From Prevotella sp. (GTDB lineage Bacteria > Bacteroidota > Bacteroidia > Bacteroidales > Bacteroidaceae), in NCBI GenBank assembly GCA_017442825.1, contig JAFRYZ010000009.1, positions 36,923 to 100,922 on the forward strand: a DNA stretch of 64,000 nucleotides, read 5' to 3'. A program made the position numbers and the translations under genes. Below are positions 10,413-62,228 of the stretch, one piece after another (position 1 is the stretch's first letter; each line of letters opens with the position of its first letter). The notes under the pieces are model-generated. The model was not told the DNA's origin. It saw only the letters and a list, made by a program, of their open reading frames with translations, and searched no databases.

Positions 10413-10566
10413 GTACCAACGCTTGGTACTCCTCGTACCAAAACTTGGTAGTCCTCATACCAAGCGTTGGTAGCCTCCCGACCACAGTGTGGTCTCTGGA
10501 ATACCTAAACATGGTCGCACGCCGACCAAAAAATGGTCATGACCCGACCACGATGGGGTATTACAA
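10413..10566. repeat. Dyad array A: seven palindromes with exact 22-bp period
   Basis: Seven consecutive 22-bp units start at 10413, 10435, 10457, 10479, 10501, 10523 and 10545. Each is centred on an ACC-N-GGT dyad: unit 1 GTACCAACGCTTGGTAC, unit 3 TACCAAGCGTTGGTA, unit 4 GACCACAGTGTGGTC, unit 6 GACCAAAAAATGGTC; units 5 and 7 are weaker. Arms drift from unit to unit but the register is kept. It ends where the duplicated leader cassette before GH127 begins. There are no unique spacers of CRISPR size. Confidence 0.8.
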
Positions 10567-10800
10567 AAATGAGGATGGCGCGTCTTATTGTTGAAGGGGA
10601 GTTAAAGGGGAGTTAAAGGGGAGTGAATAGGGAGTTAAAAGGGAGTTGAAAGGGAGTTAAAGGGGAGTTAAAGGGGAGTTAAAGGGGAGTTCGAGGGGAG
10701 TGAATAGGGAGTTAAAAGGGAGTTAAAAGGGAGTTAAAAGGGAGTTAAAGGGGAGTGAAAGGGAGTGAAAGGGGAGTTAAATAAAAGAAGTGAAAAATAT
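10561..10800 (+). promoter_or_regulatory. Duplicated leader cassette with 17-copy 11-bp array, upstream of GH127
   Basis: A 36-bp head (TTACAAAAATGAGGATGGCG...) is followed by about 17 imperfect copies of GGGGAGTTAAA (10596-10782) and by AAATAAAAGAAGTGAAAAAT just before the GH127 ATG. The same head, a 6-copy array and the same tail precede GH141 at 13541-13684. The head also holds a possible 15-codon upstream ORF (10569-10616) ending in the array. The G-rich units look like repeated Shine-Dalgarno motifs in the mRNA; whether this affects translation is unknown. Confidence 0.75.
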
Positions 10801-12954
10801 ATGAGAAATCTATGGAAGACTGGAGCTGTCGGCATGTTGCTGATGGCAGTGAGCATGAGCGTGCCGGCACAGCATAGGGGGCTGACGGATATGTCGAAGA
10901 GTAAGCAGGCGGTGATGCAGAACACGCCGATGGGTGCGGTGCGATGGACAGGCGGTTTTTGGAAAGACCGCTTCGACGTGCTGGCGACAACGGGTGTGTG
11001 GGGCATGTGGGACACCTGGAACACGCCGTGGGAGGTGCTCGACGCCGACGGCAAGCACGGCAGTCATGGTTTCCGCAACTTCGAGGTGGCTGCCGGTACG
11101 GTGAAAGGTAAGCACCACGGTCCGCCGTTCCACGACGGGGACATGTATAAGTGGCTGGAGGCTGCCGCCTCTGTCTATGCCGTGACGAAAGACGCGAAGC
11201 TCGACGCGCTGATGGATAAGTTTATCGAACAGGTGGCGCTGGCACAGCGTGCCGACGGATATATCCATACGCCGGTGGTCATTTCCGAACGTAACTTGGG
11301 AATAGATTCTCACGCAGGTACGGAGAATGCGGCAGGCATTGAGATCGGCAAAGACCAGAAACACGCCTTTGCCTCGCGTCTGAACTTCGAGACGTATAAC
11401 CTGGGTCACCTGATGACGGCAGGCATCATCCACAAGCGCGTGACGGGGAAGAACACCCTGTTTGACTGTGGACGGAAGGCTGCCGACTTCCTGTATAACT
11501 TCCTGAAGAGCGACGCGGCAGAGCTGTCGCGCAACGCTATCTGTCCCAGCCACTATATGGGGGCTGCGGAGATGTACCGTGAGACGGGTGACAAGAAATA
11601 CCTGGAGCTGGCAGAGGGACTCATCGGCATTCGCGACTCGGTGAAGAACGGTGAAGACCATAACCAAGACCGTCATAAGCTGCGCGACCAATACGAGGCA
11701 ATGGGACATGCTGTGCGTGCCAACTACCTCTATGCCGGCGTTGCCGACCTCTATGCGGAGACGGGCGAAGGGCAGCTGATGAAGAACCTCTCAGCTATCT
11801 GGGACGACATCGTGAACCATAAGATTTATATCATGGGCGGATGCGGTGCCTTGTACGACGGCGTGAGTCCCGACGGCACCACCTATAACCAGCCGAGCAT
11901 ACAACAGATACACCAGGCTTACGGCAGACAGTTCCAGTTGCCACAGGAGGCTGCCCACAACGAGATCTGTGCACAGATAGGTATGCTGCTCTTCTCGTGG
12001 CGCATGTATCAGGTGACGGGCGACGGCAAGTATGTGGATAACATCGAGAACGAACTCTATAACGGTATTCTTTCGGGCATTTCCCTCGATGGAAAGGACT
12101 ATTTTTATACCGAGGCACTGCGCCGCACGAAGGAGTTTCCCTATACCATGCGATGGCCGAAACACCGCCAGCGCTACATCTCCTGCTTCTGCTGTCCACC
12201 GAACACGCTGCGCACCCTGGCTCAGGCACAGGAGTATGCGTATTCGTTTGGAGAAAACGAGAACGGAGGAGAAAGAGAGAAAGGGAAAAGGGGAACGGAG
12301 GGAAAAGGCTGCGTGCTGAACGTGAACCTGTATGGCGAGAGTACGTTGAAGACGAAGGACCTGGAGGTGGAGCAGAAGACGGACTACCCGTGGGACGGTA
12401 AGGTGACGCTGACGGTGAAGAAGGCGAAAAACCTTGGTGCAGTGAGACTGCATATCCCGAACTGGTGCGACAAATATACGGTCAAGGTGAATGGAGAGAC
12501 TTATCCCACTGAAGGTGGAACGAAAGGTGCCGCTGTGGTAGAAAAGAAGTTCAAAAAGGGCGATTTCATCGAAATAAATATGAATATGCGCCCACGCCTG
12601 ATAGAGGCGAACCCGCTGGTAGAGGAAGCGAAAAACCAGGTGGCTGTGATGCGTGGACCAGTGGTCTATTGCCTGGAAGGTCAGGACATAGAAGGTGGAC
12701 ACCGTATCAACGATATCGCTATCCCCGATGACATCGAACTGAAAGAGGTGCCGATGGAGATTGCCGGCCACAAGTTTGTGGCTTTGGAAGGGGAGGTCAA
12801 GGTGGTTGACAATGCCAAGTGGGACAACAACACGTTGTACCGTGAGATTGGCAAGATGAAGGAAAAGGAGGTGAAGATACGACTGATTCCTTACTATGCC
12901 TGGGACAACAGAGGCGTGCAGGATATGACGCTGTGGATGAACCGAGGAGAGTGA
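10801..12954 (+). CDS. GH127 glycosidase, probable RG-II aceric acid hydrolase or beta-L-arabinofuranosidase
   Basis: DUF1680/GH127 family, an (alpha/alpha)6 barrel with a zinc-cysteine active site. The metal motifs are present: E388-I-C390 and C462-F-C464-C465, the last pair matching the nucleophile region of the family. The signal peptide at residues 1-21 implies periplasmic or surface location. I chose ATG 10801 over the in-frame 10765 because the signal peptide starts there and the same MRNLWKTG opens the GH141 gene. In B. thetaiotaomicron the GH127 next to GH141 is the aceric acid hydrolase BT1003, so chain B of RG-II is the likely target; a plain beta-L-arabinofuranosidase is the alternative. 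A stretch rich in E, G and K (12252-12309) is an apparent in-frame insertion. First gene of the plus-strand series. Confidence 0.85.
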   Translation: MRNLWKTGAVGMLLMAVSMSVPAQHRGLTDMSKSKQAVMQNTPMGAVRWTGGFWKDRFDVLATTGVWGMWDTWNTPWEVLDADGKHGSHGFRNFEVAAGTVKGKHHGPPFHDGDMYKWLEAAASVYAVTKDAKLDALMDKFIEQVALAQRADGYIHTPVVISERNLGIDSHAGTENAAGIEIGKDQKHAFASRLNFETYNLGHLMTAGIIHKRVTGKNTLFDCGRKAADFLYNFLKSDAAELSRNAICPSHYMGAAEMYRETGDKKYLELAEGLIGIRDSVKNGEDHNQDRHKLRDQYEAMGHAVRANYLYAGVADLYAETGEGQLMKNLSAIWDDIVNHKIYIMGGCGALYDGVSPDGTTYNQPSIQQIHQAYGRQFQLPQEAAHNEICAQIGMLLFSWRMYQVTGDGKYVDNIENELYNGILSGISLDGKDYFYTEALRRTKEFPYTMRWPKHRQRYISCFCCPPNTLRTLAQAQEYAYSFGENENGGEREKGKRGTEGKGCVLNVNLYGESTLKTKDLEVEQKTDYPWDGKVTLTVKKAKNLGAVRLHIPNWCDKYTVKVNGETYPTEGGTKGAAVVEKKFKKGDFIEINMNMRPRLIEANPLVEEAKNQVAVMRGPVVYCLEGQDIEGGHRINDIAIPDDIELKEVPMEIAGHKFVALEGEVKVVDNAKWDNNTLYREIGKMKEKEVKIRLIPYYAWDNRGVQDMTLWMNRGE
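12252..12309 (+). repeat. In-frame purine-rich insertion in GH127
   Basis: Roughly 58 bp of almost pure G/A encode GGEREKGKRGTEGKG between the helical domain (ending YAYSFGE) and the beta-domain strand VLNVNLYGES. GH127 proteins usually connect these directly. It appears to be a surface-loop expansion. Confidence 0.5.
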
Positions 12955-13540
12955 GGTACACGGAAATTTTTGAACTACAAATTCAACGAATTACACGAAA
13001 AATCCTTGACTCCTTAGAATAACAACGGAAAGCACGGAAAGCACGGAAAATAATTCAGTCGCCCTAGGGCGAGAAATCTTACAAATCTATACAAATCCTA
13101 CAAATAAGAGCATTAGATTTGAGAGATTTTGAACAGATTTGTGGGATGTCTTCGACAAGCGAAGCGAGGAGAACTCCATAACTCCAAAGAATAACAACGG
13201 TAACCGCGAAGCGCTTTTACGGCTCGAACTTGTTCGCTTATATGAGCAAAGCGAGTCTTAAGAAGGCGACAGCCGACTAAAAGAAAGCACGGAAAAGAAT
13301 TCAGTCGCCCTAGGGCGAGAAATCTCACAAATCAGTACAAATTCTACAAATCAGTGTGGATATACAGGTTGAAAGATTTGGATAGATTTGTGGAAAGTCT
13401 TCGACGAGCGAAGCGCTGCGCGGTTACTTCGACAAGCGAAGCGAGGAGAACTCCATTACTGCGCGTAGCGCTTGCCAGAGCAAGAACGCACGGAAAGACA
13501 CTGATTTAATTGACAATTGTCAATTGCCGAAAGCCGCTGT
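12955..13540. repeat. Gene-free repeat mosaic between GH127 and GH141
   Basis: No credible gene. Contains two copies of a CAGTCGCCCTAGGGCGAG hairpin block followed by ACAAAT-rich DNA (about 13054-13104 and 13301-13354), the second copy of the block of about 100 bp also found at 8941-9043, and AATTGACAATT-type repeats. GH127 and GH141 may be separately transcribed, each with its own copy of the leader cassette. Confidence 0.6.
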
Positions 13541-13684
13541 ATTACAAAAATGAGGATGGCGCGTCTTATTGTTGAAAGGGAGTTAAAGGGGAGTTAAAGG
13601 GGAGTTAAAGGGGAGTTAAAGGGGAGTTAAAGGGGAGTTGTAGCGGCTAACTCCCGAGACTTAAATAAAAGAAGTGAAAAATAT
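13541..13684 (+). promoter_or_regulatory. Duplicated leader cassette with 6-copy 11-bp array, upstream of GH141
   Basis: The 36-bp head is identical to that at 10561. Six copies of GGGGAGTTAAA follow (starts 13578, 13588, 13599, 13610, 13621, 13632), then a GTAGCGGCTAACTCCCGAGA segment and the same AAATAAAAGAAGTGAAAAAT tail before the ATG. Confidence 0.75.
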
Positions 13685-15580
13685 ATGAGAAATCTATGGA
13701 AGACTGGGCTTGTCGGCATGTTGCTGATGGCACTTTGTCCGTGGTTGGTTGCTGCGCAAGAGGTGATACTAGTTACACCCGACTCGTCGCTGACCGATGC
13801 CGTGAGGAAGGCGCGGGAGATGCGGCGACTGGGTAAGGCTGAGCGCGTGACGATACAGCTGCAGCCAGGTACCTACGGGCTGTATGAGCCGTTGCGACTG
13901 CGCCCTGAAGACGAGGGGCTGACCATCGTGAGCGACGGTGCCGTTATCAGCGGTGGTATGACGGTGGACGGCTGGAGGAAACAAGGACGGCTGTGGGTGG
14001 CTGATGTGCCCGACTTCAACGGCAGACCTGTTGACTTCCGCCAGGTGTGGGTAAACGGCAGGAAGGCTGTGCGTGCCCGTGACGTGAGCGACTTCGAGAA
14101 GATGAACCGTATCATGACCTACGACAAGAAAAACCGCGTGTTGTGGGTGCCGACAAAGAGTCTGCCTGAGAGTTGGAGGACGCCCCCCAGCCCCCTAAAG
14201 GGGGTGAAAGCCCCCCAGCCCCCTAAAGGGGGTGGCGAAGGTCGGAGGAAGTGGAGTAATCAGAGTAATCGGAATAATCGGAATAGTCGGAGTAATCAGA
14301 GTCTTTATCAATTTGCAGAACTCGTTCTGCACGAGATGTGGTGCGTCAGCAACTTGCGCATCAAGGACATCCGTGTTGACGGTGATTCGGCAGCTGTCAC
14401 CTTCCACGACCCTGAAGCGAAGATACAGTTTGAACATCCGTGGCCGTCGCCGATGACACCCGACACCAAACATCCGTCACCGTTCTACCTGACGAATGCA
14501 AAGGTGTTGTTGGACGAGCCAGGTGAATGGTATCATGACATCCGTACGCACCAACTGTACTATCTGCCGCGAGCTGGGGAAGACATGGCTACGGCAGAAG
14601 TGGTCGTGCCCGTCTTGGAGACGCTGGTGGAGGTCATCGGTACGGCTGAAAGACCGGTGCGGAACATCACCTTCAAGGGCATTACCTTTGCCCATACCAC
14701 GTGGATGCGTCCCAGCGAGAAGGGACATGTGCCGCTGCAGGCGGGTATGTTCCTGACGGAAGCCTACAAATTGCGTCCGCAGATAGACCGGAAAAACAAC
14801 CACAAGCTGGATAACCAGGGATGGCTCGGCAGGGCTGATGCCGCCGTGGAGGTGCGCTACGGTGACGGCATCGACTTCAGCACGTGTCGTTTTACCCACC
14901 TGGGCGGAAGCGGCTTGGACTATGTGTGGGGATGTCGCGGGGGGGCGACGACAGGCTGCGTCTTTGAAGACATTGCGATGAACGGCTATGTCAGCGGCTC
15001 TTTCTCACCCGAAGGACTGGAGACGCACCTGCCCTATCAACCTACTGACGGTCGGGAGGTGTGCCGCGGACAGGAGGTGAAGCAATGTTTGTTCCACAAC
15101 GTGACGAACGAAGACTGGGGATGCGTGGCGATAGCTGCCGGCTATGTGGCTGAGATGAACATCGAGCACAACACCATTCATGATGTGTCTTATACGGGCA
15201 TCAGCATAGGGTGGGGATGGAACCGCGACCTGGTGTGCATGAAGGACAACCGCATCCATGCCAACTTGATTTATGACTATGCGAAGCACATGTATGACTG
15301 TGCCGGCATCTATACCCTCGGCAATCAGCCGGGGACGATGATTACGGAGAATGTGGTGCGCGACATCGCCAAACCATCGTATGTGCACGACCCGAACCAT
15401 TGGTTCTATCTCTATACTGACGAGGGGTCGTCGAATATCACACTCAAGGACAACTGGACACCGGAGGAGAAGTTCCTGAAGAATGCGGTGGGCCCCAACA
15501 ACGTATGGGAGAACAACGGTCCGATGGTGAGCGAGGAGATTAAAGCGAGAGCGGGAGCTCAATTCATAATTGACAATTGA
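13685..15580 (+). CDS. GH141 right-handed beta-helix glycosidase, probable RG-II alpha-L-fucosidase
   Basis: An exported beta-helix protein. The signal peptide (MRNLWKTGLVGMLLMA..., cleaved near VAAQ) is nearly identical to that of GH127. After a DUF1565-like N-terminus (LQPGTYGLYEPLRLRPEDEG) come helix coils with conserved WGCVAIAAGYV, YTGISIGWGW and YDCAGIYTLGNQPG. It is homologous to the 538-aa protein at 31832. In B. thetaiotaomicron the GH141 founding member BT1002 removes alpha-L-fucose from RG-II chain A and lies beside GH127, as here. Residues about 168-208 are an in-frame repeat insertion absent from the paralogue. The last residues (AQFIIDN) and the stop come from an AATTGACAATT tandem repeat, so the original C-terminus may have been replaced. 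The MFS gene follows after 40 bp of the same repeat. Confidence 0.8.
   Translation: MRNLWKTGLVGMLLMALCPWLVAAQEVILVTPDSSLTDAVRKAREMRRLGKAERVTIQLQPGTYGLYEPLRLRPEDEGLTIVSDGAVISGGMTVDGWRKQGRLWVADVPDFNGRPVDFRQVWVNGRKAVRARDVSDFEKMNRIMTYDKKNRVLWVPTKSLPESWRTPPSPLKGVKAPQPPKGGGEGRRKWSNQSNRNNRNSRSNQSLYQFAELVLHEMWCVSNLRIKDIRVDGDSAAVTFHDPEAKIQFEHPWPSPMTPDTKHPSPFYLTNAKVLLDEPGEWYHDIRTHQLYYLPRAGEDMATAEVVVPVLETLVEVIGTAERPVRNITFKGITFAHTTWMRPSEKGHVPLQAGMFLTEAYKLRPQIDRKNNHKLDNQGWLGRADAAVEVRYGDGIDFSTCRFTHLGGSGLDYVWGCRGGATTGCVFEDIAMNGYVSGSFSPEGLETHLPYQPTDGREVCRGQEVKQCLFHNVTNEDWGCVAIAAGYVAEMNIEHNTIHDVSYTGISIGWGWNRDLVCMKDNRIHANLIYDYAKHMYDCAGIYTLGNQPGTMITENVVRDIAKPSYVHDPNHWFYLYTDEGSSNITLKDNWTPEEKFLKNAVGPNNVWENNGPMVSEEIKARAGAQFIIDN
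14185..14310 (+). repeat. In-frame hairpin and simple-repeat insertion in GH141
   Basis: A tandem pair of 27-bp units, each with the hairpin AGCCCCCTAAAGGGGGT, is followed by a run of GGAATAATC/GGAGTAATC units. It reads through as a P/K/G-rich then N/S/R-rich segment. The paralogue at 31832 lacks it between the equivalents of LPESW and ELVLHEMW. The hairpins are of the intergenic type. Confidence 0.8.
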
Positions 15581-15582
15581 CA

Positions 15583-15620
15583 ATTGACAATTGATAATTG
15601 ACAATTCATAATTCACAATA
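15583..15620. repeat. AATTGACAATT tandem repeat at a gene junction
   Basis: About five overlapping copies of AATTGACAATT/AATTGATAATT (from 15560) span the GH141 stop codon and the start of the MFS gene. The same element is found at 10080-10150, 13508-13530, 17012, 17230, 20385 and 20568. Confidence 0.7.
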
Positions 15621-16958
15621 ATGGAAAAGAAAGAAAGTAGTTTGAAGAGTACGATAGCGGTGTCCTTGACCAATTATCTGGATGCCGGTGCTATCGTAGC
15701 TGGTGCCAGCGGACTGACGCTATGGCAGAATTACCTGGGATTGAGTGAGGTGCATCTGGGATGGTTGAACTTTATCAGTGCCAACTGTCTGGGGGCTGCC
15801 GTTGGTGCCATCATCGGCGGATTCCTTGCCGACAAGTATGGCAGGAAGTTTATCTTTACCTATAACCTGCTGGTGTATATGACGGGTGTGCTGCTCATCA
15901 TGTTGAGTGTGAACTTCCCCATGCTGCTGGCGGGATTCTTGGTGACGGGTATCTCCGTGGGTGTCGGTGTGCCGGCATCATGGACGTATATCTCTGAGAG
16001 TTCGGAAATCAACAACCGCGGACGTAACATCTGTATCTCGCAGATGTCGTGGGGCATCGGTCCGATGATTATCCTGTTGTTAGGAATGTTCTTCGCCCCT
16101 GGTGGTTATCTGTTTGGTTGGGTAGAGGCGGCAGCTCATGCCGTCGGCGGTGACCAGTTGGCGACAGATGCTGTCAACGTGTTCAGTTCGCGTATCGTCT
16201 TCCTCTCGTTGTTCATCGTGGCGTTCATCGCCTGGAACCTGCAGCGCGGCTTACAGGAGAGTGCCGAGTTCGAGGCGCAGAAGAGTGAGGAGAAGAAAGC
16301 AGGACTGGTGGATAACATCAAGGTGCTCTTCCAGAACCATATCGCCGTGAAGACGGTTTGCTTCCTCGCTACCATCTACCTGACATGGAACCTCGTGGCT
16401 TCGGTGATGGGTTTCTTCCAGCCCCATATCTACGAGACGGCAGGAGGGGTGAGCAACGAACAGGCAAACTGGATGAACTTTATCCAGTGGGCGATTATCG
16501 TGGGAGTGACTCTTATCACGTCGCGGCTCATCGACAAGACCAGTCATAAGGGTATCTACATCTTCGGACTGGTGGCAGCACTGAGTGCCTGGCTCGTCAT
16601 CGTCACCATCGGTGTGAACGGACCGGCGGGCTTGTGGGCTTTCGCTATCCTCTGGGGTATTCAAGGCGGTGCTTCGCCTCAGATCTTCTATGCCCTGTGG
16701 GGATCGGAGCTGTTCCCTGCCAAATTCCGCGCCGGTGCACAAGGACTGATGTTCTTCATCGTCCGCGGCTTGTCGGCTTTGTGGGGACTGGTGTTCACCT
16801 ATATCTACGGCGAGAATGGTGAGGGCTTTACGATTGCCGCCTACTGCATGATTGCCCTACTGCTGATTTCGCTGATTGTAGGTGTGGCTCTCGCTCCGAA
16901 GACGCGCGGGAAGTCGCTGGAACAGATTACGAGAGAAAGATATGGGAGTCTTGGTTGA
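15621..16958 (+). CDS. MFS sugar transporter (445 aa)
   Basis: An inner-membrane major facilitator with about 12 membrane segments. The sugar-porter signature GGFLADKYGRKF lies in the loop after TM2, and PAxWTYISE and WGSELFPAKFRAGAQG match conserved parts of the family. Expected to import a monosaccharide or short oligosaccharide released from the pectin; substrate not determinable from sequence. It lies between GH141 and a signal-less GH78, so it may feed that cytoplasmic enzyme. The start is set by the ATG after the AATT-repeat; there is no clear ribosome binding site. The C-terminus (KTRGKSLEQITRERYG) resembles the PETKGKSLEE end of sugar porters. Confidence 0.85.
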   Translation: MEKKESSLKSTIAVSLTNYLDAGAIVAGASGLTLWQNYLGLSEVHLGWLNFISANCLGAAVGAIIGGFLADKYGRKFIFTYNLLVYMTGVLLIMLSVNFPMLLAGFLVTGISVGVGVPASWTYISESSEINNRGRNICISQMSWGIGPMIILLLGMFFAPGGYLFGWVEAAAHAVGGDQLATDAVNVFSSRIVFLSLFIVAFIAWNLQRGLQESAEFEAQKSEEKKAGLVDNIKVLFQNHIAVKTVCFLATIYLTWNLVASVMGFFQPHIYETAGGVSNEQANWMNFIQWAIIVGVTLITSRLIDKTSHKGIYIFGLVAALSAWLVIVTIGVNGPAGLWAFAILWGIQGGASPQIFYALWGSELFPAKFRAGAQGLMFFIVRGLSALWGLVFTYIYGENGEGFTIAAYCMIALLLISLIVGVALAPKTRGKSLEQITRERYGSLG

Positions 16959-17243
16959 TAATTCTCCAGACTCGCTGACGCTCGAAGGAGCGGCAAAGCC
17001 GAAAGACAATTGATAATTGACTCAACTTTCGGAAGTTACCGCGACTAAAGCCGCTTGGAAGTTATCGCGGTCTTTGACCGCTTGGAAGTTAAAAAGGAGT
17101 TATCGCCCCTTCGGGGCTTGGACGTTAGATTTCCTTGTTTGAAGATACTATCGTCCTTTTAACTTCGCCGCATAGCGGCATAACTTCCTTTTAACTCCAG
17201 CCGCGTAGCGGCAAACTCCCGAAACTTAAATAATTGATAATTG
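16959..17243. repeat. Hairpin-cassette spacer between MFS and GH78
   Basis: No gene. Successive short hairpins: CGGTC-TTT-GACCG, GCCCC-TTC-GGGGC, GCCGC-ATA-GCGGC and GCCGC-GTA-GCGGC, interspersed with GGAAGTTA/GGAGTTA motifs (starts 17031, 17057, 17084) and ending in AATTGATAATTG. The block at 16961-17011 repeats 10023-10075. Confidence 0.65.
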
Positions 17244-19481
17244 ATGGCAACATGGATATGGTATCCCGGAGACTTTGAAGTATGGTTAGGTAACCGGTTT
17301 AACAACAGGCGGACGGAGAGGGGGGCGATGTTTCCTCCTTTCTGGAAGCAGGACAGTCATTGGGTGACGGTGGAGTTTTCGAAAGCTTTTACGCTGGAGG
17401 AGGCGGAGGACATTGCCATTGGTTGTGAGGGACGGTACAACCTGATGTTGGACGGGAAGTTGCAGTTCCTGGCTGGGCGCAATACCTTCACCATTCCTGC
17501 CGGAGAGCACAAACTGAACTTGAAGGTGTGGAACCAGACCTCTCCGCCAGCATTGTTTATTGACGGGAAGACCGTGAAGACCGACAGCACGTGGCTGGCA
17601 ACCTACGAGGACAAGATATGGATTGACGAGAATGGTGTTGCCCACGGGTCGGGCATCTATGTGCCTGCAGCTTCGTGGAACTTCGACAAGATGGAAACAC
17701 CGCCTTCCAACTACCAACTGGAAAGAAAGGTGCAACGGCCGGTGGGTTGCGATGAAATCGCAACAAACGGGACGGAGGGGGTAACGGGCTGCGACAAATT
17801 TGCAACAAACGGGTCGGCAAGGGAGGCAAGAAGCACCGTTGCAACAAACGGGACAGGCAGGCTTTATGACTTTGGGAAAGAGACTTTCGGCTACTTGAGG
17901 GTGAAAGGGCTGAAAGGAAGGATACGTATCTATTATGGTGAGAGCCGTGAAGAGGCGCTGGACAAAGAGCACTGCGAAACGCTGGACGTGATGGCGGGTT
18001 GCGACAAAGTCGCAACAAACGGAACGAAAAGAAACGGGACAGTAAGGGAGGCACCGAACGGGACAGCAGGGGAGGTGACGAACGACGACGGACAGCTGGG
18101 CAGTAAGGCGTTCCGCTATGTATATATAGAAACGGAAGAGGGGAGTCGTTATGACGAGGTGTATATGGAATATGAGTATGCACCTTTTGATGTTGACAAG
18201 AGTGGTTCGTTTTGTTGCAGCGATGGACTGTTGAACCAGATATGGGAGGTAGGAGCCTACACCATGGACCTGACGACGCGCGAGTTCTTTATGGACGGCA
18301 TCAAGCGTGACCGATGGACATGGAGCGGTGATGCCATACAGTCGTATCTGATGAACTACTATCTGCGTTTCGATACGGAGTGTGTGAAGCGTACCATACG
18401 TCAGTTGCGCGGTAAAGACCCCGTGACGGCACACGTCAACACGATCATGGACTATACGTTCTATTGGTTTAAGTCGGTGCTGGACTACTATCTCTACACG
18501 GGAGACATTGACTTTGTGCGGGAGATATACCCGAAGATGCAGACGCTGATGGACTATGTGCTGGGGCGGACCAACGACGATGGTATGGCAGAGGGACAAG
18601 CCGACGACTGGATTTTTGTGGATTGGGTGGATTTCCCGATGCACAAGCGAGGGGTTCTCTGTTTCGAGCAGATACTCTTCTGCAAGGCTTTGGAGACCAT
18701 GCAACGGTGTGCGGAGGAATTGCGGAGCCATCCGCTGGAGCAAGCCCCGCAGGGTAGTATCACCGATGAGGCTTATGCAGCTGATGCCGAACGCTATCGG
18801 GAGTTGGCAGAACAGTTGTGGATCAAGGTGAAAAACCTTTTCTGGGACAAGGAAAAGAAGACTTTTATGCACGCTGTTGAAGACGGGAAGATGAATGAGC
18901 AAGTGACGAAGTTCCCGAATATGTTTGCCATGATTTACGGCTTTGCCAGTGAGGAAGAACAACGGCAGATCATGGAGCGGGTGATGTTGAACCCGCAGGT
19001 GGACGCTATCACAACGCCCTACATGCGCTTCTATGAGTTGGAGGCACTCTGCAGGATGGGACGGCAGCAAGAGGTGTTGAAGGAAATACGCGATTACTGG
19101 GGCGGTATGTTAGCGGAAGGAGCCACCACGTTTTGGGAGAAATACAACCCTGGAGAGAAGGGAACAGAGCATCTGGCGATGTACGGCAGACCATACGGTA
19201 AGAGTCTCTGTCATGCGTGGGGAGCCAGTCCGGTGTATCTCTTGGGCAGGTACTATCTGGGTGTCAGTCCGCTGGCACCTGGTTATGCGGAATATGAGGT
19301 GCGCCCTGTTTTGGGTGACCTGCAATGGATGGAGGGCGCCGTACCAACACCCTTTGGCTTGATACATGTGAAGATGACCACCGACACCATCACCGTGGAG
19401 GCTGATGGCGGCAAGGGCATCTTGATTGCCCCTGACGGACAACGAATAGACATTCAAGGAAAGACAACCTATCATTATTAA
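17244..19481 (+). CDS. GH78 alpha-L-rhamnosidase without signal peptide (745 aa)
   Basis: A Bac_rhamnosid-type enzyme: N-terminal beta-sandwich domains (residues 1 to about 310), then the (alpha/alpha)6 catalytic domain with the family motif FFMDGIKRDRWTWSGD and a C-terminal beta domain (YEVRPVLGDLQWMEGAVPTPFG). It hydrolyses terminal alpha-L-rhamnose. It starts MATWIWYPG with no signal peptide, so it probably acts in the cytoplasm on imported oligosaccharide; the MFS transporter just upstream supports that. Two regions of the N-terminal part (17747-17854 and 17999-18064) are in-frame repeat insertions encoding CDxxATNGT-type peptides. The GH127-GH141-GH78 order resembles BT1003-BT1002-BT1001 of B. 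thetaiotaomicron (from memory). It ends 6 bp before the GH43 gene. Confidence 0.85.
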   Translation: MATWIWYPGDFEVWLGNRFNNRRTERGAMFPPFWKQDSHWVTVEFSKAFTLEEAEDIAIGCEGRYNLMLDGKLQFLAGRNTFTIPAGEHKLNLKVWNQTSPPALFIDGKTVKTDSTWLATYEDKIWIDENGVAHGSGIYVPAASWNFDKMETPPSNYQLERKVQRPVGCDEIATNGTEGVTGCDKFATNGSAREARSTVATNGTGRLYDFGKETFGYLRVKGLKGRIRIYYGESREEALDKEHCETLDVMAGCDKVATNGTKRNGTVREAPNGTAGEVTNDDGQLGSKAFRYVYIETEEGSRYDEVYMEYEYAPFDVDKSGSFCCSDGLLNQIWEVGAYTMDLTTREFFMDGIKRDRWTWSGDAIQSYLMNYYLRFDTECVKRTIRQLRGKDPVTAHVNTIMDYTFYWFKSVLDYYLYTGDIDFVREIYPKMQTLMDYVLGRTNDDGMAEGQADDWIFVDWVDFPMHKRGVLCFEQILFCKALETMQRCAEELRSHPLEQAPQGSITDEAYAADAERYRELAEQLWIKVKNLFWDKEKKTFMHAVEDGKMNEQVTKFPNMFAMIYGFASEEEQRQIMERVMLNPQVDAITTPYMRFYELEALCRMGRQQEVLKEIRDYWGGMLAEGATTFWEKYNPGEKGTEHLAMYGRPYGKSLCHAWGASPVYLLGRYYLGVSPLAPGYAEYEVRPVLGDLQWMEGAVPTPFGLIHVKMTTDTITVEADGGKGILIAPDGQRIDIQGKTTYHY
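17747..17854 (+). repeat. In-frame hairpin element, three copies, inside GH78
   Basis: Copies at 17747-17773, 17789-17815 and (truncated) 17838-17854 carry TTGCGA-N5-TCGCAA (or the variant CTGCGA-N5-TTGCAA), then ACAAACGGGAC. In frame they encode CDEIATNGT, CDKFATNGS and VATNGT. The same element occurs at 17999 and in the second GH78 gene at 24660. Confidence 0.85.
17999..18064 (+). repeat. In-frame hairpin element, fourth copy in GH78
   Basis: TTGCGA-CAAAG-TCGCAA followed by ACAAACGGAAC (17999-18025), encoding CDKVATNGT, then two partial tails AACGGGAC (18033-18040, 18057-18064). Confidence 0.8.
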
Positions 19482-19487
19482 AGTGAG

Positions 19488-20396: not shown

Positions 20397-20599
20397 TTCA
20401 ACTTTCGGAAGTTAAAAGGGAGTTAAAAAGGAGTTAAAAAGGAGTTAAATGGACATCAGAACCTCCAAATAAAGAAAAGTATCGTCCCTTTCACTCCAGC
20501 AGCGAAGCTGCTAACTCCCCTTCCATTCCTTTCCACTCCAAAGTTGAGCAATAAGCGAAACTTGAATAATTGATAATTGAAACACAATGATTATAACGT
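20397..20599. repeat. Spacer with GGAGTTAAA units and a perfect hairpin
   Basis: Three GGAGTTAAA-type units (20413-20450), a perfect AGCAGC-GAA-GCTGCT hairpin (20498-20512), CACTCC/ACTCC repeats and an AATTGATAATTG element directly before the next gene. No ORF seen. Confidence 0.6.
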
Positions 20600-47946: not shown

Positions 47947-47994
47947 TATCCCGAGTGTAACCCTCTAAACCAATAAAAGATGGTATGTCATAAA

Positions 47995-48082
47995 GTAAAA
48001 CATTATATTTTACTTAGTAAAACATTATATTTTGGTCGGTAAAACATTATGTTTTACTTTGCAAAACATTATATTTTACTTG
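47995..48082. repeat. Dyad array B: four palindromes with exact 22-bp period
   Basis: Units start at 47995, 48017, 48039 and 48061. Unit 1 core is GTAAAACATTATATTTTAC and unit 3 core GTAAAACATTATGTTTTAC, the latter a perfect 9+1+9 palindrome; units 2 and 4 are one-sided variants. The array ends 44 bp before the GH2 start at 48127 and 49 bp after the GH137-GH2 stop. It is operator-like in size and phase. Confidence 0.85.
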
Positions 48083-48099
48083 ATGAGAACAATACATAG

Positions 48100-51378
<3,279 letters not shown>

Positions 51379-51434
51379 ACTCAACCTTTGCCGAGAAAGT
51401 ATAGACAAATTGCCAACTGGTACGTCTTTTCATT

Positions 51435-54344: not shown

Positions 54345-54363
54345 CCGTCATTCGTTCATCAAT

Positions 54364-54393
54364 ATGAAAAGAATCACCATCTTATCAATATGA
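54364..54393 (+). other. 9-codon mini-ORF made by tandem duplication of the GH106 start region
   Basis: A 26-bp unit (ATCAATATGAAAAGA(A/T)TCACC...) is duplicated in tandem. The first copy opens MKRITILSI and stops at TGA 54391-54393, overlapping the GH106 ATG at 54390 (ATGA). A ribosome ending there could restart on GH106. Confidence 0.6.
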
Positions 54394-57300: not shown

Positions 57301-57725
57301 TTGTGGAGAATCATGTCAAGAAGCAAGTACAGCTGCCCCATGACTGGTCGCAGGATAATTCTTCCGCTATTCGTTTTTACAGTGGAACAGCCATTTATCG
57401 GACTTCCTTTAATTATAAGGAGAGTCCATCGGGTAGGGTAGTACTCAACCTTGGTGAGGTACATGACCTTGCCCATGTCTATCTGAATGATGTTGATTGC
57501 GGTATCGCTTGGACTTCCCCCTACGAGGTTGATGTTACCAAAGCCATTAAAGAAGGCAAGAACAATTTGCGCATAGACGTAGTAAATACATGGCACAATG
57601 CCTTGAAAGGACTCGATGCCGGAACACCGCCATTCGATGGAATATGGACGAATGCCCGTTATCGGACAAAGGGTGACAGTCTGCTGCCTGCCGGTCTCTT
57701 CGGTCCTGTGCAATTCAAGTGGTAG
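54390..57725 (+). CDS. GH106 alpha-L-rhamnosidase (1,111 aa)
   Basis: Signal peptide 1-18. The N-terminal TIM-barrel start has the hallmark WTFWYWMYGAVSKEGIKADLQAMKDVGLGG, then a beta domain insert, HVDSWECGCQNWSDNF (catalytic region), SSESIAPTMVSDG, YWLNSPTHDKPND, AEGFTEVRGVWNETPAMVKPL, and a C-terminal jelly-roll (LNLGEVHDLAHVYLNDVDCGIAW). It cleaves alpha-L-rhamnose; in B. thetaiotaomicron a GH106 acts on RG-II chain B. Residues about 385-412 are an in-frame tandem repeat of S, R and L. A second possible repeat-derived stretch encodes QSTQNIPNLQKI (54905-54945). The start was set at the second copy of a duplicated start region. Confidence 0.88.
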   Translation: MKRFTILLLFIYVASAAQSSPHSKPWTFWYWMYGAVSKEGIKADLQAMKDVGLGGCYLMPIRSSAEKPEYKGKAEQLSPEFWEMVRYAMQQADSLGLEMGIHICDGFALAGGPWITPAESMQKMVFSDTIVTGNPKQLFNRKYGLTLPRPAANQGYYEDIATFAIPLRTGETIQSTQNIPNLQKIPISFSLLAVVGDAALTMSPTMTRNAKGIFAASEPAWIQYDFQMPQTFRNVEIAANGTNIQAQRMKVEVSDDGISFRKVKQLVPPRQGWQNYDYATTFAFPQTTARYWRLSWTPESTEPGSEDLDAAKWRPRLGLKDAVFTNLPRIGSWEGKAGLVWRIADETTKAELSDADCVQPDAMIPLQLQGNQVVGISAHSNQKSFSRNSRLSSSSSKSRLSSSSSKSRLSSHSATTYLILRMGHTSTGYTNATAGGGKGLECDKFSSTIVNKQIDHWFSRFDSLARSSSVAPLKYLHVDSWECGCQNWSDNFASEFKTRRGYDLIPYLPVMAGFPVESAAKSEQVLRDVRLTINELLNDNFFVTVRDRAHQMGLQFSSESIAPTMVSDGLAHYQYADLPMGEYWLNSPTHDKPNDMLDAISGAHIYGKPIVQAEGFTEVRGVWNETPAMVKPLLDRNFALGMNKLFFHVTAHNPWMDRKPGMTLDGIGLFFQRDNTWYREAKGFVDYITRCQDILQSGKPVVDIAVFTGEEMPSRAVLPERLLPMLPGLFGNERVKAEQQRLANIEQPMAESPVGVWHSAGIVDTKDWVNPLRGYHYDSVNKDVLLSAMALDGYVFLPNGAKYRVLVVPQYNPQSNPTQPIPATYSKEVLNQIDAFRKAGVIVIDRPYQEEDFSRYGMERDIVLPENIAYTHVRKGYDTHIYFLSNQENRERTFTVSFREKTSCYALIDAVIGRRTLYNMPLNSTGRSEIQLSLPAYGSVFVELFNGIVDKQQVPHVPHNLTLQQPWQVEFVENHVKKQVQLPHDWSQDNSSAIRFYSGTAIYRTSFNYKESPSGRVVLNLGEVHDLAHVYLNDVDCGIAWTSPYEVDVTKAIKEGKNNLRIDVVNTWHNALKGLDAGTPPFDGIWTNARYRTKGDSLLPAGLFGPVQFKW
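55543..55625 (+). repeat. In-frame TCTAGA-rich 27-bp tandem repeat in GH106
   Basis: Three units of about 27 bp (TCTAGATTATCTAGTAGTTC and on) read as RLSSSSSKS, RLSSSSSKS, RLSSHS. It lies between two ordered segments of the insert domain (GNQVVGIS... and TTYLILRMGHTSTGYT). Confidence 0.85.
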
Positions 57726-57746
57726 AATCATCAAAAGAAACACAAT

Positions 57747-59150
57747 ATGAAAAGACTCATGACCATTATTGCTGCTTTTTGTTGTATTACAGCAAATGCA
57801 GAAGTGAAGTTGCCGAAGATATTCAGTGACAATATGGTGCTACAGCAACAGACTGTCTGCAACCTTTGGGGTACAGCTGCTGCGAACAAAACCGTCAAGG
57901 TAACGACTTCTTGGGATAAGCAGACGTACAAGGTACAGGCTGCCGAAGATGGTTCTTGGAAGGTGCAGGTACGGACTCCACAGGCAGGCGGACCATACGA
58001 CATTTCCTTTAACGACGGCAAGGAGACCGTTTTGAAGAACGTTCTGATTGGCGAAGTGTGGATTTGTAGCGGTCAGTCGAATATGGAGATGCAAATGAAA
58101 GGCTTCAAGGCGCAACCCGTTGAGGGTGCCAACGAAGAGCTGTTGCAATGTGGCGACAGCAATCTGCGACTTCTCTATGTCAAGCGGACGGCACAGTTTA
58201 AACCGCAATCCGACATTAAAGACGGTACTTGGAAAGTCGCCGATGCAGCTTCGGTACGTGATTTCTCGGCAACTGCTTATTATTTCGGGCGCGCCTTGCG
58301 CCGTACGTTAGGTATTCCTGTCGGCTTGATTTGTACCGCCTTTGGCGGTTCCGCTTGTGAGGCGTGGATGAAAGCAGACTGGCTGCGTGCGTTCCCACAA
58401 GTGCAGCAGACCATTACCGAAGATGATGTCAAGAAACTGAACCAGCGTTGCCCCACTGCTCTTTATAATGGTCAGCTGTTTCCGCTCATTGGTTACACCA
58501 TGCGCGGAGTCCTATGGTATCAAGGTGAGGACAACGTCCCCCGATATAGTTACTATGCTGAATTGTTGAAGCGTATGGTTGAGGGCTGGCGTTCGGAGTG
58601 GAATCAAGGTGAATTCCCCTTCTATTTCTGTCAGATAGCTCCCTATGACTATAGTATTGTCAATTGGAAAGATAGTCAATATTTGCGTGAACAGCAACAA
58701 AAGGCTGAAGAAATAATTCCCAATGCCCGTATGGCAGTGCTGATGGATGCTGGTTTGGAGTATGGCATTCATCCTCGGAAAAAACGTGAGGTTGGTGAGC
58801 GTTTGGCGATGTTGGCCTTGTCGAATACCTATCATGTGAAGGGATTGCCTGAATATGCTAAATATAGTAGTGTGGAGTTTCGTGGTGATACAGCAGTGGT
58901 GGCTTTCGACCGTTCCAAGGAATGGGTCTATTTTGAACACGGAACGACCAGCAAGAACTTTGAAGTCGCCGGCAATGATCGTGTGTTCCATCCCGCCACC
59001 AAGGTATGGATTTCGCGCAATAGGGTATATCTCCTGTGTGATGCCGTCAAACAACCGATAGCTGTCCGCTATGCTTTCCACGATTGGGCAGAGGGCGATC
59101 TGATGCACGACGGACTTCCTGTCAGTTCTTTCCGTACCGACAATTGGTAA
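57747..59150 (+). CDS. SASA-family carbohydrate esterase (467 aa), probable acetylesterase
   Basis: Signal peptide 1-19. An SGNH-like esterase of the sialate O-acetylesterase (SASA/DUF303) type: N-terminal Ig-like domain (VQVRTPQAGGPYDISF), nucleophile S111 in ICSGQSNMEM, oxyanion-side GLICTAFGGSACEAWM, GVLWYQGEDN, and the Asp-x-x-His part near MDAGLEYGIHPRKKREVGERLA. It probably removes acetyl groups; RG-II carries acetyl esters on aceric acid and methylfucose in chain B. Exact substrate is inferred. It starts 21 bp after GH106 and is followed by a terminator hairpin. Confidence 0.8.
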   Translation: MKRLMTIIAAFCCITANAEVKLPKIFSDNMVLQQQTVCNLWGTAAANKTVKVTTSWDKQTYKVQAAEDGSWKVQVRTPQAGGPYDISFNDGKETVLKNVLIGEVWICSGQSNMEMQMKGFKAQPVEGANEELLQCGDSNLRLLYVKRTAQFKPQSDIKDGTWKVADAASVRDFSATAYYFGRALRRTLGIPVGLICTAFGGSACEAWMKADWLRAFPQVQQTITEDDVKKLNQRCPTALYNGQLFPLIGYTMRGVLWYQGEDNVPRYSYYAELLKRMVEGWRSEWNQGEFPFYFCQIAPYDYSIVNWKDSQYLREQQQKAEEIIPNARMAVLMDAGLEYGIHPRKKREVGERLAMLALSNTYHVKGLPEYAKYSSVEFRGDTAVVAFDRSKEWVYFEHGTTSKNFEVAGNDRVFHPATKVWISRNRVYLLCDAVKQPIAVRYAFHDWAEGDLMHDGLPVSSFRTDNW

Positions 59151-59162
59151 AACCTACTGCAA

Positions 59163-59194
59163 ACCCTCTCGCAAGGGAGGGTATTATCTTTTTT
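59163..59194 (+). terminator. Intrinsic terminator or attenuator after the SASA esterase
   Basis: Stem ACCCTCTC/GGGAGGGT (8 pairs including one G-T) capped by a GCAA tetraloop (59163-59182), followed after 6 bp by TTTTTT. It sits 12 bp past the esterase stop and before the next GH2, so it either ends the operon or attenuates the last gene. Confidence 0.75.
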
Positions 59195-59224
59195 AGTATT
59201 TAATCCATTAAGCATATTCTATTC

Positions 59225-61945
59225 ATGAGCAACAAGCATACCGGCATTCTGCTTTCAATAGTCTTTACCATCGCGTTTTGGCCTGCATTCTCCTCCCTTG
59301 GTCAGGGAATAGAAGCCCTTCCCTCGGTTGCGGGTCTTTTCCCCATCGAAAACCAAGGCAGGCAAGTTTGGAACTTCAATCCCGATTGGCTGTTCCATCT
59401 GGGAGATGCTTCTGGTGCCGAACAGATAGCATTTGATGATAGCAGTTGGGAGCGCGTTTCTACCCCTCACTCTGTAAAACTGGAGCCGGCAGAGGCTTCC
59501 GGTTGTCGCAACTATCAAGGTGTGGCATGGTATAGAAAGCATTTTATAGTACCTGAAGAACGAGCTGAACTACATTTTGAAGCCGTAATGGGAAAGCAGC
59601 GGTTTTATGTCAATGGAAAATTGGCACAAGAACATTTAGGTGGTTACCTTCCTGTATCTATCGACTTGACTCAGTTTGGTTTGACAAAAGGAGACTCTTG
59701 TGTTGTTGCCGTCATGGTTGACAATTCCAACGACAACAGCTATCCGCCAGGAAAACCGCAATACACCCTCGACTTCGCTTATCACGGGGGCATCTATCGT
59801 GATGTGTGGCTTATTGGCAAGAATGAAGTTTCTATTACCGACCCTGTTGTAGCCAACAAACAAGCGGGGGGCGGTATCTTTGTCCATTACGACAATATCT
59901 CTGAGCGCAGTGCCGATGTCTTTGTTGATACAGACTTGCGTAATGTAGGACGCCAACAGACGGTAACCGTAGAGCAGACTCTTCTCGATAAAACGGGAAA
60001 AACATTGAAGAAAGTCTCAAAAAAAGTAACGATTCCATCGGAGGGAACGACTACAGCACGACAGAAGCTGACGGTGAAGTCGCCGCATTTGTGGTCGCCG
60101 GAGACACCTTATTTATATAGAGTGGTAACACGCGTCAAAGCAGGTAATCGCATCCTTGATGGTGGCGAGACTCGTATAGGCATCCGTTCGTTTGAGTTTA
60201 AGGGGAAGGATGGCTTCTGGTTGAATGGTAAGCGTTATCGGAAATTCATCGGTGCCAACCGTCATCAAGACTTTGCCTACGTTGGTAATGCCGTTCCCAA
60301 CTCACAGCAGTGGCGTGATGTCGTCCGACTGAAGAATGCAGGCTTTAATATCATCCGTACAGCCCATTATCCACAAGATCCTTCTTTTATGGATGCTTGC
60401 GATGAAATCGGCATTTTTATCATTGTCGCCACTCCAGGATGGCAGTATTGGAACAAGAAAAATCCAGAATTTGAACAGCGCGTTTTACAAAATACACGTG
60501 AGATTATCCGCCGCGATCGTAATCATCCTTCTGTGCTCATGTGGGAACCGATTCTCAACGAGACCCGCTTCCCGTTGGACTTCTCGTTGAAGTCGCTGCA
60601 GATTACCAAGGACGAGTATCCCTATCCCTACCGACCAGTGGCTGCTGCCGACATGCACTCGGCAGGTGTGCGGGAAAACTACGATGTCGTCTACGGCTGG
60701 CCTGGTGACGAGAAGAAAGCCGACCGTCCCGACCAGTGCATTTTCACGCGTGAGTTTGGTGAGTATGTCGATGACTGGTATGCCCACAACAACCTCAATC
60801 GTGCCAGTCGTTCGTGGGGGGAGAAGGCGCAGCTGACACAGGCTCAATCCTTAGCGAAGACGATGCAGGAGTTGGTGAACACTGGCGACCAGTTTATCGG
60901 TGGTGCACAGTGGCATCCTTTCGACCACCAGCGCGGCTACCATCCCGACCCTTATTGGGGTGGCATCTACGATGCCTTCCGTCAGCCCAAGTATGCGCAA
61001 CCGATGTTTACGGCAGCGCTGACCCAACCTAAAGCCGCTCCTTTCGTCTATATTGCCCATGAGATGACCCAGTTCTCTGACAGTAATGTTGTTGTCTTCA
61101 GCAATTGCGACAGCGTACGCCTCTCCCTCTACGACGGCGAGAAGTCCTGGACGCTCCCCGTACCCTCACCCCCCATCCCTCAACCTTCATCCTTCAACCC
61201 TCACCCCTCATCCCTCCACCTCCCTGTCTGTTTCCAGCGCGTCTGGAACTTCTGGGAAGCTCGCGAGTTCAGCTATACCCAGCGTAACTGGCAGAAGGTG
61301 AATATGTTAGCAGAAGGAATAGTCGACGGTAAGGTCGTCTGTTCCGTCCGTAAGATGCCGTCGCGCCGCTCAACCAAGCTTCGCCTTTATGTTGATAACC
61401 CCTCGCTCTTCACGGCGCACCCCCTTCAGGGGGCTGGGGGGCTTTCCTTCGCTCCCCCTCTCGTTGCCGATGGCAGCGACTTTGTTGTCGTTGTCTGTGA
61501 GGTCACCGATGACAACAGCAACGTTCGTCGTTTGGCTAAAGAGAACATTGTCTTCACCGTGGAGGGGGAGGGCGAGATGATTGGTGATGCTGCTATCAAC
61601 GCCAACCCACGGGCTGTAGAGTGGGGTAGTGCCCCCGTCCTCATCCGTTCTACCCGCAAGGCAGGAAAGATCAAGGTTCATGCCGAGGTGCAGTTCCCCG
61701 GTACCCATGCTCCCACACCTGCCGACATCGAGTTGGAAAGCGTCCCCTACCCAGGTCAGTTTTGTGAAGGAATTGTCGATTCGTCCTCCCCTGAAGAGAG
61801 CGGAAAGGTGGGTGGTGCTGCCGGTAATGGCAGTCAAGCATCCTCATCGTCGGAAGTCGGTAAAGGCACCCTCTCCAACGAAGAGAAGGCTCGCCTCTTG
61901 AAAGAGGTACAGGATCAGCAGGCTGACTTCGGCATAGGGCAGTAA
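59225..61945 (+). CDS. GH2 glycosidase (906 aa) with low-complexity inserts
   Basis: Signal peptide 1-27 (ILLSIVFTIAFWPAFSSLGQ). GH2 domains: sugar binding (WYRKHFIVPEERAELHFEAVMGKQRFYVNGKL), Ig-like, TIM barrel with IGANRHQDFAYVG, acid/base E446 (EPILNETRF) and nucleophile E510 or E513 (TREFGEYVDDW). C-terminal Ig-like domains include DUF4982-like parts. Beta-galactosidase or beta-uronidase; linkage not determinable. Two in-frame inserts: a P/S-rich run (61158-61226) and a hairpin of type CCCCCTTCAGGGGG (61417-61460). The last 60 residues are S/G/K-rich and probably disordered. A terminator hairpin separates it from the esterase gene. Confidence 0.75.
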   Translation: MSNKHTGILLSIVFTIAFWPAFSSLGQGIEALPSVAGLFPIENQGRQVWNFNPDWLFHLGDASGAEQIAFDDSSWERVSTPHSVKLEPAEASGCRNYQGVAWYRKHFIVPEERAELHFEAVMGKQRFYVNGKLAQEHLGGYLPVSIDLTQFGLTKGDSCVVAVMVDNSNDNSYPPGKPQYTLDFAYHGGIYRDVWLIGKNEVSITDPVVANKQAGGGIFVHYDNISERSADVFVDTDLRNVGRQQTVTVEQTLLDKTGKTLKKVSKKVTIPSEGTTTARQKLTVKSPHLWSPETPYLYRVVTRVKAGNRILDGGETRIGIRSFEFKGKDGFWLNGKRYRKFIGANRHQDFAYVGNAVPNSQQWRDVVRLKNAGFNIIRTAHYPQDPSFMDACDEIGIFIIVATPGWQYWNKKNPEFEQRVLQNTREIIRRDRNHPSVLMWEPILNETRFPLDFSLKSLQITKDEYPYPYRPVAAADMHSAGVRENYDVVYGWPGDEKKADRPDQCIFTREFGEYVDDWYAHNNLNRASRSWGEKAQLTQAQSLAKTMQELVNTGDQFIGGAQWHPFDHQRGYHPDPYWGGIYDAFRQPKYAQPMFTAALTQPKAAPFVYIAHEMTQFSDSNVVVFSNCDSVRLSLYDGEKSWTLPVPSPPIPQPSSFNPHPSSLHLPVCFQRVWNFWEAREFSYTQRNWQKVNMLAEGIVDGKVVCSVRKMPSRRSTKLRLYVDNPSLFTAHPLQGAGGLSFAPPLVADGSDFVVVVCEVTDDNSNVRRLAKENIVFTVEGEGEMIGDAAINANPRAVEWGSAPVLIRSTRKAGKIKVHAEVQFPGTHAPTPADIELESVPYPGQFCEGIVDSSSPEESGKVGGAAGNGSQASSSSEVGKGTLSNEEKARLLKEVQDQQADFGIGQ
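61158..61226 (+). repeat. In-frame CATCCCTCAACC-type repeat in GH2
   Basis: Repeated (C)CCTCA(A/C)CC/TCATCC units read as PPIPQPSSFNPHPSSLHLP within the first C-terminal beta domain. Same unit type as 47500-47562. Confidence 0.75.
61417..61460 (+). repeat. In-frame CCCCCTTCAGGGGG hairpin in GH2
   Basis: A perfect 5-bp C/G stem (CCCCC-TTCA-GGGGG) followed by a second G-run and CTCCCCCTC. It reads as HPLQGAGGLSFAPPL. Related to the hairpins at 14185-14240 and 509-545. Confidence 0.7.
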
Positions 61946-62003
61946 CCTCTCTTCCCTATGCGTTTTCAATATATAATCGAACATGCGACGCTATGTCCCG
62001 TAT

Positions 62004-62022
62004 GTCACTATTTTATAGTGAC
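62004..62022. repeat. Single 19-bp palindrome GTCACTAT-TTT-ATAGTGAC
   Basis: A perfect 8-bp stem with 3-nt centre, flanked by CCGTAT and TTA. A related 19-bp dyad with the same flanks is at 62287-62305. Confidence 0.75.
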
Positions 62023-62140
62023 TTACAGGACTGAGGTCGCTGTGTAGATGTACGCTAATTGAGCGCAAGTCGAGCGCACTCTCCCGTTAACATCCATTAA
62101 GTACACAGGTCCGAAAAAACAAACATAAAGTCCTTGTCTT

Positions 62141-62228
62141 GCAACTGTTATGTGTTTACCTTCCAACTATTATGAGTTTGCAACGCAACTACATAGAGTT
62201 TGGCGTGCAAACTCTATGTAGTTGGAAC
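62141..62228. repeat. Dyad array C: four palindromes with exact 22-bp period
   Basis: Units start at 62141, 62163, 62185 and 62207. Cores are GCAACTGTTATGTGTTTAC, CCAACTATTATGAGTTTGC, GCAACTACATAGAGTTTGG and GCAAACTCTATGTAGTTGG; unit 4 is the inverse of unit 3, giving a perfect 17-bp inverted repeat (62186-62202 with 62208-62224). Same unit length and number as array B, different sequence. The rest of 61946-62518 holds the two single 19-bp dyads and a promoter, and no gene. Confidence 0.85.

Follow-up and report, generated by a model that had tools for sequence, protein, structure and literature searches.

What kind of element keeps the spacing of its sites and not their sequence? The question is raised by a 64,000-nt stretch of Prevotella sp. 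DNA (GenBank assembly GCA_017442825.1, contig JAFRYZ010000009.1, positions 36,923 to 100,922), referred to here as the window. A first-pass annotation had described three tandem rows of palindromes in it, arrays A, B and C, with unrelated arms and one exact 22-bp period. Prevotella is a common gut, rumen and oral genus. The observation marks a genus-wide Prevotella class of small, dispersed, gain-and-loss-prone intergenic elements. The body of each element holds mostly 3-4 and up to 7 palindromic sites spaced 22 bp apart, as if 11-bp half-sites followed each other in alternating orientation. Repeats scattered through bacterial genomes are usually identified by their sequence. In this class the sequence is nearly unconstrained while the spacing is held, and a repeat finder that relies on sequence would report it as many unrelated families. 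The arrangement suggests mobile protein-landing strips. Our favoured explanation, held with moderate confidence, is that these mobile intergenic elements form a phased, two-turn operator lattice for one or more putative dimeric proteins. The open-licence literature searched yielded no account of palindrome arrays with a 22-bp period in Prevotella.

A fixed period with exchangeable arms

Array A (10412..10565) comprises seven 22-bp units, each an odd-centred palindrome of about 15 bp followed by a 7-nt linker; the arms are TACCA/TGGTA and later GACCA/TGGTC, and unit 5 is imperfect. Array B (47995..48082) has four 22-bp units made of the 19-bp palindrome GTAAAACATTATRTTTTAC and a 3-nt linker; units 2 and 4 have altered arms, and Tandem Repeats Finder (TRF) gives period 22, 4.0 copies and an 83% match. 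Array C (62141..62228) has four 22-bp units of 17-nt imperfect dyads, CAA..TTG, with 5-nt linkers; the 17-mer of unit 3 is the exact reverse complement of that of unit 4. None of the arrays is assigned a strand.

The best three-dyad sum at period 22 is 19 for A and 20 for B; it reached at most 18 when the non-coding bases of the window (5,863) were resampled 300 times by a Markov model. The description as tandem palindromes stands for A and B. Array C falls below the dyad-score threshold and is a 22-bp array of imperfect dyads, recognised via its dispersed copies, which hold the period and the frame. The arrays were rightly separated from CRISPR (clustered regularly interspaced short palindromic repeats): only 1-9 nt of linker lie between palindromes, and there is no constant repeat with unique, longer spacers of fixed length.

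The genome that contains the window (G000; 2.31 Mb, 79% complete) carries all three types as families. Family A gives 8 matches at 7 loci (L001-L008), family B is found at 6 loci and family C at about 11. Periods 12-45 were scanned in 860,900 bases of this genome, on contigs mostly known beforehand to hold array matches. Period 22 yields 19 three-dyad rows, the harmonics 33 and 44 yield 14 and 11, and every other period yields 0-6; a single Markov control of the sample gave 1 row at period 22. The period does not vary freely. Row centres fall on a base in 63 of 74 cases and between bases in 11 (thresholds scaled to pair number). Further arm families at period 22 are D (CAGTACGAA/TTCGTACTG), E (GTAATATA), F (CAAAAG), G (TTCCGAA) and H (TTGGTAAA), although several of the weaker rows in this listing resemble chance. 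Palindrome and linker add up to 22 in each family on our reading: 15+7 in A, 19+3 in B, 17+5 in C, 21+1 in D and 13+9 in another genome, G367. Linkers vary more in sequence than in length.

TRF also peaks at 22 in the G000 sample (32 rows), yet period 7 is commoner (66 rows) and is the commonest intergenic tandem period. This abundance of intergenic tandem repeats of several periods agrees with a purely mutational origin, in which tandem duplication and template switching at quasi-palindromes would produce minisatellites with no binding protein. The unit cores of P. koreensis occur, by our reading, in both orientations, as loop inversion would yield. Such an origin is nevertheless quite unlikely: the dyad rows prefer period 22, linker length is held better than linker sequence, the families are dispersed with near-identical C copies amid different flanks, and genes in viral-catalogue contigs (below) keep their palindromes through three reading frames.

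Other Prevotella genomes repeat the pattern with other arms. In G166, sampled at regular steps, there are 6 rows at period 22 (at least one doubtful by eye) and 0-3 at other periods; the units are GTNATNTGNNGCANATNAC-like, and the arms are unrelated to those of the window. The G367 sample, 320 contiguous kb chosen where a pattern with free linkers of 1-14 had listed arrays, has 16 dyad rows at 22, 15 at 33, 5 at 44 and 0-2 at other periods. It contains 16 strict arrays with units AAACGGNCCGTTT and 9-nt linkers; special end half-units (ATACATGCCATTT ... AAATGGCATGTAT) make of them, as we read it, an element of about 105-127 bp that is 22-phased to its ends.

Linker length can also be counted where it was left free. 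The CAAA class (CAAA N9 TTTG repeats, linkers of 1-14 allowed) matches 40 of 200 genus genomes. At one locus from each of 30 of these 40, the first linker is 5 in 26/30 and both linkers are 5 in 20/30, a 5/5 match having been taken wherever a locus held one; when this preference is removed, the first linker is 5 at 19 of 22 loci (22 of the 30 read, forward strand). A hand count gives a first linker of 5 in 147/150 among the matches listed. The GTTT class (GTTT N9 AAAC) matches in 7/7 genomes, which were picked for having it; 12 of the 14 cuts of 7 places were read and all are 5/5, and five listed GTTT rows of G350 stop early at a GTTT within the linker. The control for the CAAA scan, the pattern reversed, is itself a palindrome array and matched many genomes; it was taken as a second arm class and is no clean negative. 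Period 22 is thus preferred both in the window's own genome and in genomes of the genus, with differing arms, in agreement with the earlier proposal of a class set by geometry and not by sequence.

Spread, gain and loss

The pattern with CAA..TTG fixed and 17+5 spacing was scanned over GTDB r220 genomes, some of which give several stretches. At least 117 stretches match, where about 0.1 chance matches would be expected by our arithmetic, which ignores base composition. Among the 117 matches listed, 106 are titled Prevotella, Prevotellaceae, Hoylesella, Leyella or Segatella, five are 'Bacteroidaceae bacterium' metagenome-assembled genomes (MAGs), and six lie outside Prevotella/Bacteroidaceae by title (Methanosarcina, a Bacteroidales MAG with a simple repeat, Kiritimatiellae, Parapedobacter, Gastranaerophilales and Parabacteroides). 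Outside the genus, no period-22 dyad row appears in 274 kb from the rest of the family or in 345 kb from other families; at the G000 density about 6 and 8 rows would be expected in these two small samples. A plasmid search with array B gave no match.

Array C lies inside a larger element resembling a miniature inverted-repeat transposable element (MITE; 61977..62335, no strand assigned, ends approximate and placed by eye). The ends of this C element are imperfect inverted repeats, TCGAACATGCGACGC ... GCGTCGCACGTTTAAT, according to alignment and to self-comparison of the copy L067. It has 0 matches among 59 relatives and is also present in the sister genome Prevotella sp. UBA2746 (G209, through L149). 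In two pairs of C copies the flanks do not match, yet the copies themselves share 91% identity over 453 and 464 bp; by comparison, the true G209 orthologue of the window's C locus has flanks of 81-88% identity and is without the left half of the element. The comparison of orthologous loci proposed in the first-pass annotation thus shows presence and absence. Array B is absent at the orthologous G209 site, where the genes appear to abut, and a seven-unit A-type array stands in G209 where the window has a 24-bp intergenic gap. At orthologous sites, the sister species differ by gain or loss of arrays. No flanks are shared among the seven P. koreensis arrays read.

Operators, hairpins, decoys and the search for a partner

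Structured RNA or single-strand hairpins (repetitive extragenic palindrome (REP)-like mRNA hairpins or terminators), with each 22-nt unit a stem-loop, would also be palindromic. Neighbouring genes point mildly in the same direction: within 600 bp (n=188, genes taken as long open reading frames, ORFs) arrays face 113 3' ends and 75 5' ends. Hairpins would covary from unit to unit. Covariation was examined in a set for which inner pairing had played no part in the choice: 76 CAA arrays (285 units) from 75 of the 117 named loci. Of its inner positions, 1-3 are palindromic, at 65, 55 and 59% paired; shuffling right arms within arrays causes no overall loss of pairing (z 1.7, -2.8, 0.8, -2.3 and -3.2 at positions 1-5). 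G-T mismatches equal A-C mismatches, 81 each, in these arrays, which are not oriented. General covariation was likewise not found in family A, for which 7 loci located by BLAST supplied 41 units (the units least like the first dropped), or in G367 (66 cores, 44 linkers). Palindrome length varies while its sum with the linker stays at 22, and Rfam 15 has 0 matches in the window at gathering scores. In the absence of unit-by-unit covariation, half-sites follow a consensus independently, as operators do; on this sequence evidence, the arrays are operator-like rather than hairpin-like, and the hairpin explanation is unlikely. The earlier suggestion of tandem operators fits these unselected sets.

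Contigs from a viral catalogue carry such arrays inside genes. AAACCA..TGGTTT-type 22-bp arrays lie within a DUF6291 phage-type gene (L382:12796-13404, L383:2573-3178, L386:6348-7088); the family was assigned by scan in L382 and L386, and the unscanned L383 protein is nearly identical to that of L382. Since 22 is not a multiple of 3, the palindrome passes through three reading frames, and in L386 it is read successively as KPVVF, KTSGF and NQWF. Retention of the palindromes across these frames suggests that the lattice is maintained as DNA within coding sequence. Phg_2220_C, a phage domain, is also found in the L386 protein; a gene for an IstB/DnaC-type ATPase lies downstream in L386, and a RusA gene lies upstream in L382.

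A second group (L416, L417 and L419, of which the last two are alike) has three TACCA/TGGTA units, as in family A, inside a small ORF (L416:894-1163, L417:790-1059; also L419, L422 and L423). The start of this ORF is alike throughout and its middle is an array of either arm type; the product probably has a C-terminal membrane segment, judged by eye. L422 and L423 align by eye with the L416-type ORF start and carry the array in the same place with GTTT/AAAC arms, so one homologous site looks as if it carries two arm types. The earlier idea of a repeat that diversifies per locus may survive for this site only, as arm types otherwise form dispersed multi-copy families. On a family-A matrix, where ACCA/TGGT match by construction and the other positions are scored, six distinct viral units range from -9.6 to 5.1 (null mean -8.0, standard deviation 5.6, 99th percentile 4.1); L418 does not fit, with a score of -12.1. 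A terminase match (E 3.6e-7) is present in L417; L416 strongly matches a phage family without assigned function and weakly matches tail and portal families. In another viral-catalogue contig (L420:1019-1198), GTAAAC..GTTTAC 22-bp units stand directly before a gene whose N-terminus is ribbon-helix-helix-like by eye; a Pfam scan found no such domain.

These contigs are the main ground for regarding the arrays as decoys, that is, chromosomal copies of phage or plasmid operator or iteron arrays which soak up their protein. The family-A-like arrays of the L416 group, the seemingly same placement of both arm types, and the in-gene arrays with phage domain and neighbouring ATPase are in keeping with it, as is the 22-bp length of R6K and pPS10 iterons in the part of the source consulted (PMC4980987). 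Against it, the viral-catalogue contigs match none of the Prevotella sequences compared, and such an array is present at 0/23 further initiator loci; on the latter count, general phage-initiator iterons were also rejected as a candidate. Titration is clearly improbable. We consider a wider reading similarly doubtful: geometry alone would define a category of mobile element, Prevotella chromosomes and phages would both carry an invariant two-turn lattice of dimer sites whose arms are swapped as specificity shifts, chromosomal decoys would titrate a phage or plasmid initiator or regulator, and arm diversity would record an arms race over specificity.

In the favoured explanation, an operator lattice, each palindrome would be the operator of a homodimeric DNA-binding protein, and adjacent dimers would touch along one face of the DNA. 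B-DNA has 10.5 bp per turn; 22 bp is about 2.1 turns, so the statement that all dyads face the same side is correct as an approximation. Dimer-dimer contacts along one face would hold the spacing, leaving specificity and arms to differ between families and species. The putative protein, coded by the host or borne by a mobile element, would most likely use the array in copying the element or in DNA regulation.

A number of results weigh against the operator lattice, its mobility or its restriction to the genus. The 7-8 or so arm families in one genome require several proteins or one tolerant protein, and no candidate partner common to all array genomes emerged from the neighbour Pfam, Y1 and Rep3 scans. 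At some CAA positions, pairing within a unit is poorer than pairing between units (z to -3.2), which is not a prediction of the operator model either. Mild covariation occurs at two positions (z 2.5 for a core pair of G367 and z 1.9 for the outermost pair of family A); dyad-selected sets give more apparent covariation, which was put down to selection bias. By eye, both sides change in the small hairpins of the C element's flanks, as the hairpin explanation would have it. The spacing has exceptions in the CAAA class: linkers of 3/3 (period 20) in two genomes, and also of 4/5 and 12/1. Once masked, 75 named loci (557 kb) contain just 2 more period-22 rows, no more than several other periods, and G150 has 1 such row in 200 kb. 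Without the dyad condition, TRF finds 5 period-22 rows in the non-Prevotella samples. Finally, target-site duplications were not shown, and would not be discernible at the divergence of G209.

The genes next to the window's arrays might suggest a tie to sugar genes. All three arrays are intergenic and precede genes on the + strand: a GH127 gene (10765..12954) downstream of A, a GH2 beta-galactosidase-like gene (48127..51378) downstream of B, and a xylose-isomerase-like TIM-barrel gene (62519..63403) downstream of C. Upstream siting is confirmed for these three but is not general, given the excess of 3' ends noted above. The sugar-gene tie finds no support: 92 of the 188 neighbour proteins were scanned, giving 160 Pfam families, none of them in more than 2 members. 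As there is no common 5' position or neighbour family, local regulation of particular genes is unlikely as a common function.

Individual partner candidates fared no better. No Rep family is among the 25 most frequent of these 160 families. A Rep3 winged-helix initiator is encoded on a second contig of G257 and G367 (L413:1198-2355, L414:973-2250); the two proteins are 82% identical over 365 residues, each has an array of its genome's own family upstream, and the conserved protein may be a secondary-chromosome initiator. As a universal partner Rep3 was rejected, with matches in 26/200 genomes and no PF01051 match in 11 of 16 array genomes (G000, G209, G231, G353, G235, G318, G308, G323, G350, G166 and G150). 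G158 and G219 have Rep3 genes, with no such array seen within 1.5 kb. Beside a Rep3 gene of G219 (L412:2248-2333) are exact 22-bp direct repeats (x3.9) that resemble ordinary plasmid-type iterons. A short Abi_2-type ORF (140 aa; L128:3600-4700) has CAA..TTG arrays on both sides and, on our reading, a further 22-bp repeat at its 3' end; being a single case, it was rejected as a candidate.

Movement by a Y1 (RAYT, REP-associated tyrosine transposase) enzyme, as in REP elements and bacterial interspersed mosaic elements (BIMEs), would account for arrays that are dispersed, mostly intergenic, palindromic and of high copy number, as in the 320 contiguous kb of G367. Y1_Tnp (PF01797) is matched in 7 of 14 array genomes and not in the other 7, which include G219 (99% complete) and G353 (91%). 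This weakens the explanation; Y1 was rejected as the mover, and a REP/BIME-like origin is very improbable.

Other repeats were seen in the course of the analysis. Non-palindromic 11-bp tandem arrays (GTTAAAGGGGA-like, up to 17.5 copies) occupy window positions 10590-10781, 13571-13639 and 20410-20449; the first is directly behind array A, and 11 bp is half of the 22-bp period. Heptad repeats (CAATTGA/ATAATTG) are found at 15560-15619, 17230-17245 and 10076-10148. A separate dispersed repeat that starts with TAGTTTAACGATTTTAGTTGACTAC occurs at L041 near 212, L043:11768 (shorter), L054:18164, L074:15172 and L079:13726, and is joined to a D or G array at 4 of these 5 places.

Comparison with known systems

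Should the arrays prove to be protein lattices, the DNA-binding system behind them would be new and abundant, to judge by the 16 strict arrays in 320 kb of G367. They would also be a natural experiment in how DNA-binding specificity can shift with cooperativity preserved.

Tandem operators of dimeric repressors are phased palindrome rows with contacts between dimers. Phased palindrome rows are common to both systems; the arrays described here differ in being many per genome and in having no tie to a gene family.

REP/BIME elements, as far as the sources consulted in part describe them, are also short, dispersed, extragenic palindromes in alternating orientation. In contrast to these, the arrays here are spaced near 22 bp, have mostly 3-4 units, and occur in 7/14 genomes without a RAYT match.

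Iterons of R6K and pPS10 are 22 bp long, and their cooperative binding depends on helical placement, according to the portion of the source used (PMC4980987). Tandem sites phased at about two turns are shared with the present arrays, and the 22-bp direct repeats by the Rep3 gene of G219 look to be of this kind. Iterons in that portion are direct repeats that bind Rep monomers at an origin, whereas the units here are palindromic, dispersed and mostly have no rep gene nearby.

The BrickBuilt MITE of Porphyromonas gingivalis is, in the sections of its description that were available (PMC4596501), one family of 23-nt direct repeats with a leader and a tail. The arrays here have a 22-bp period, are palindromic and fall into many arm families. 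Inverted-repeat ends of the BrickBuilt type are seen on the C element and not on the seven P. koreensis arrays read. The two nevertheless resemble each other, within the same sections, as dispersed intergenic MITE-like elements of Bacteroidales with an internal minisatellite and predicted stem-loops.

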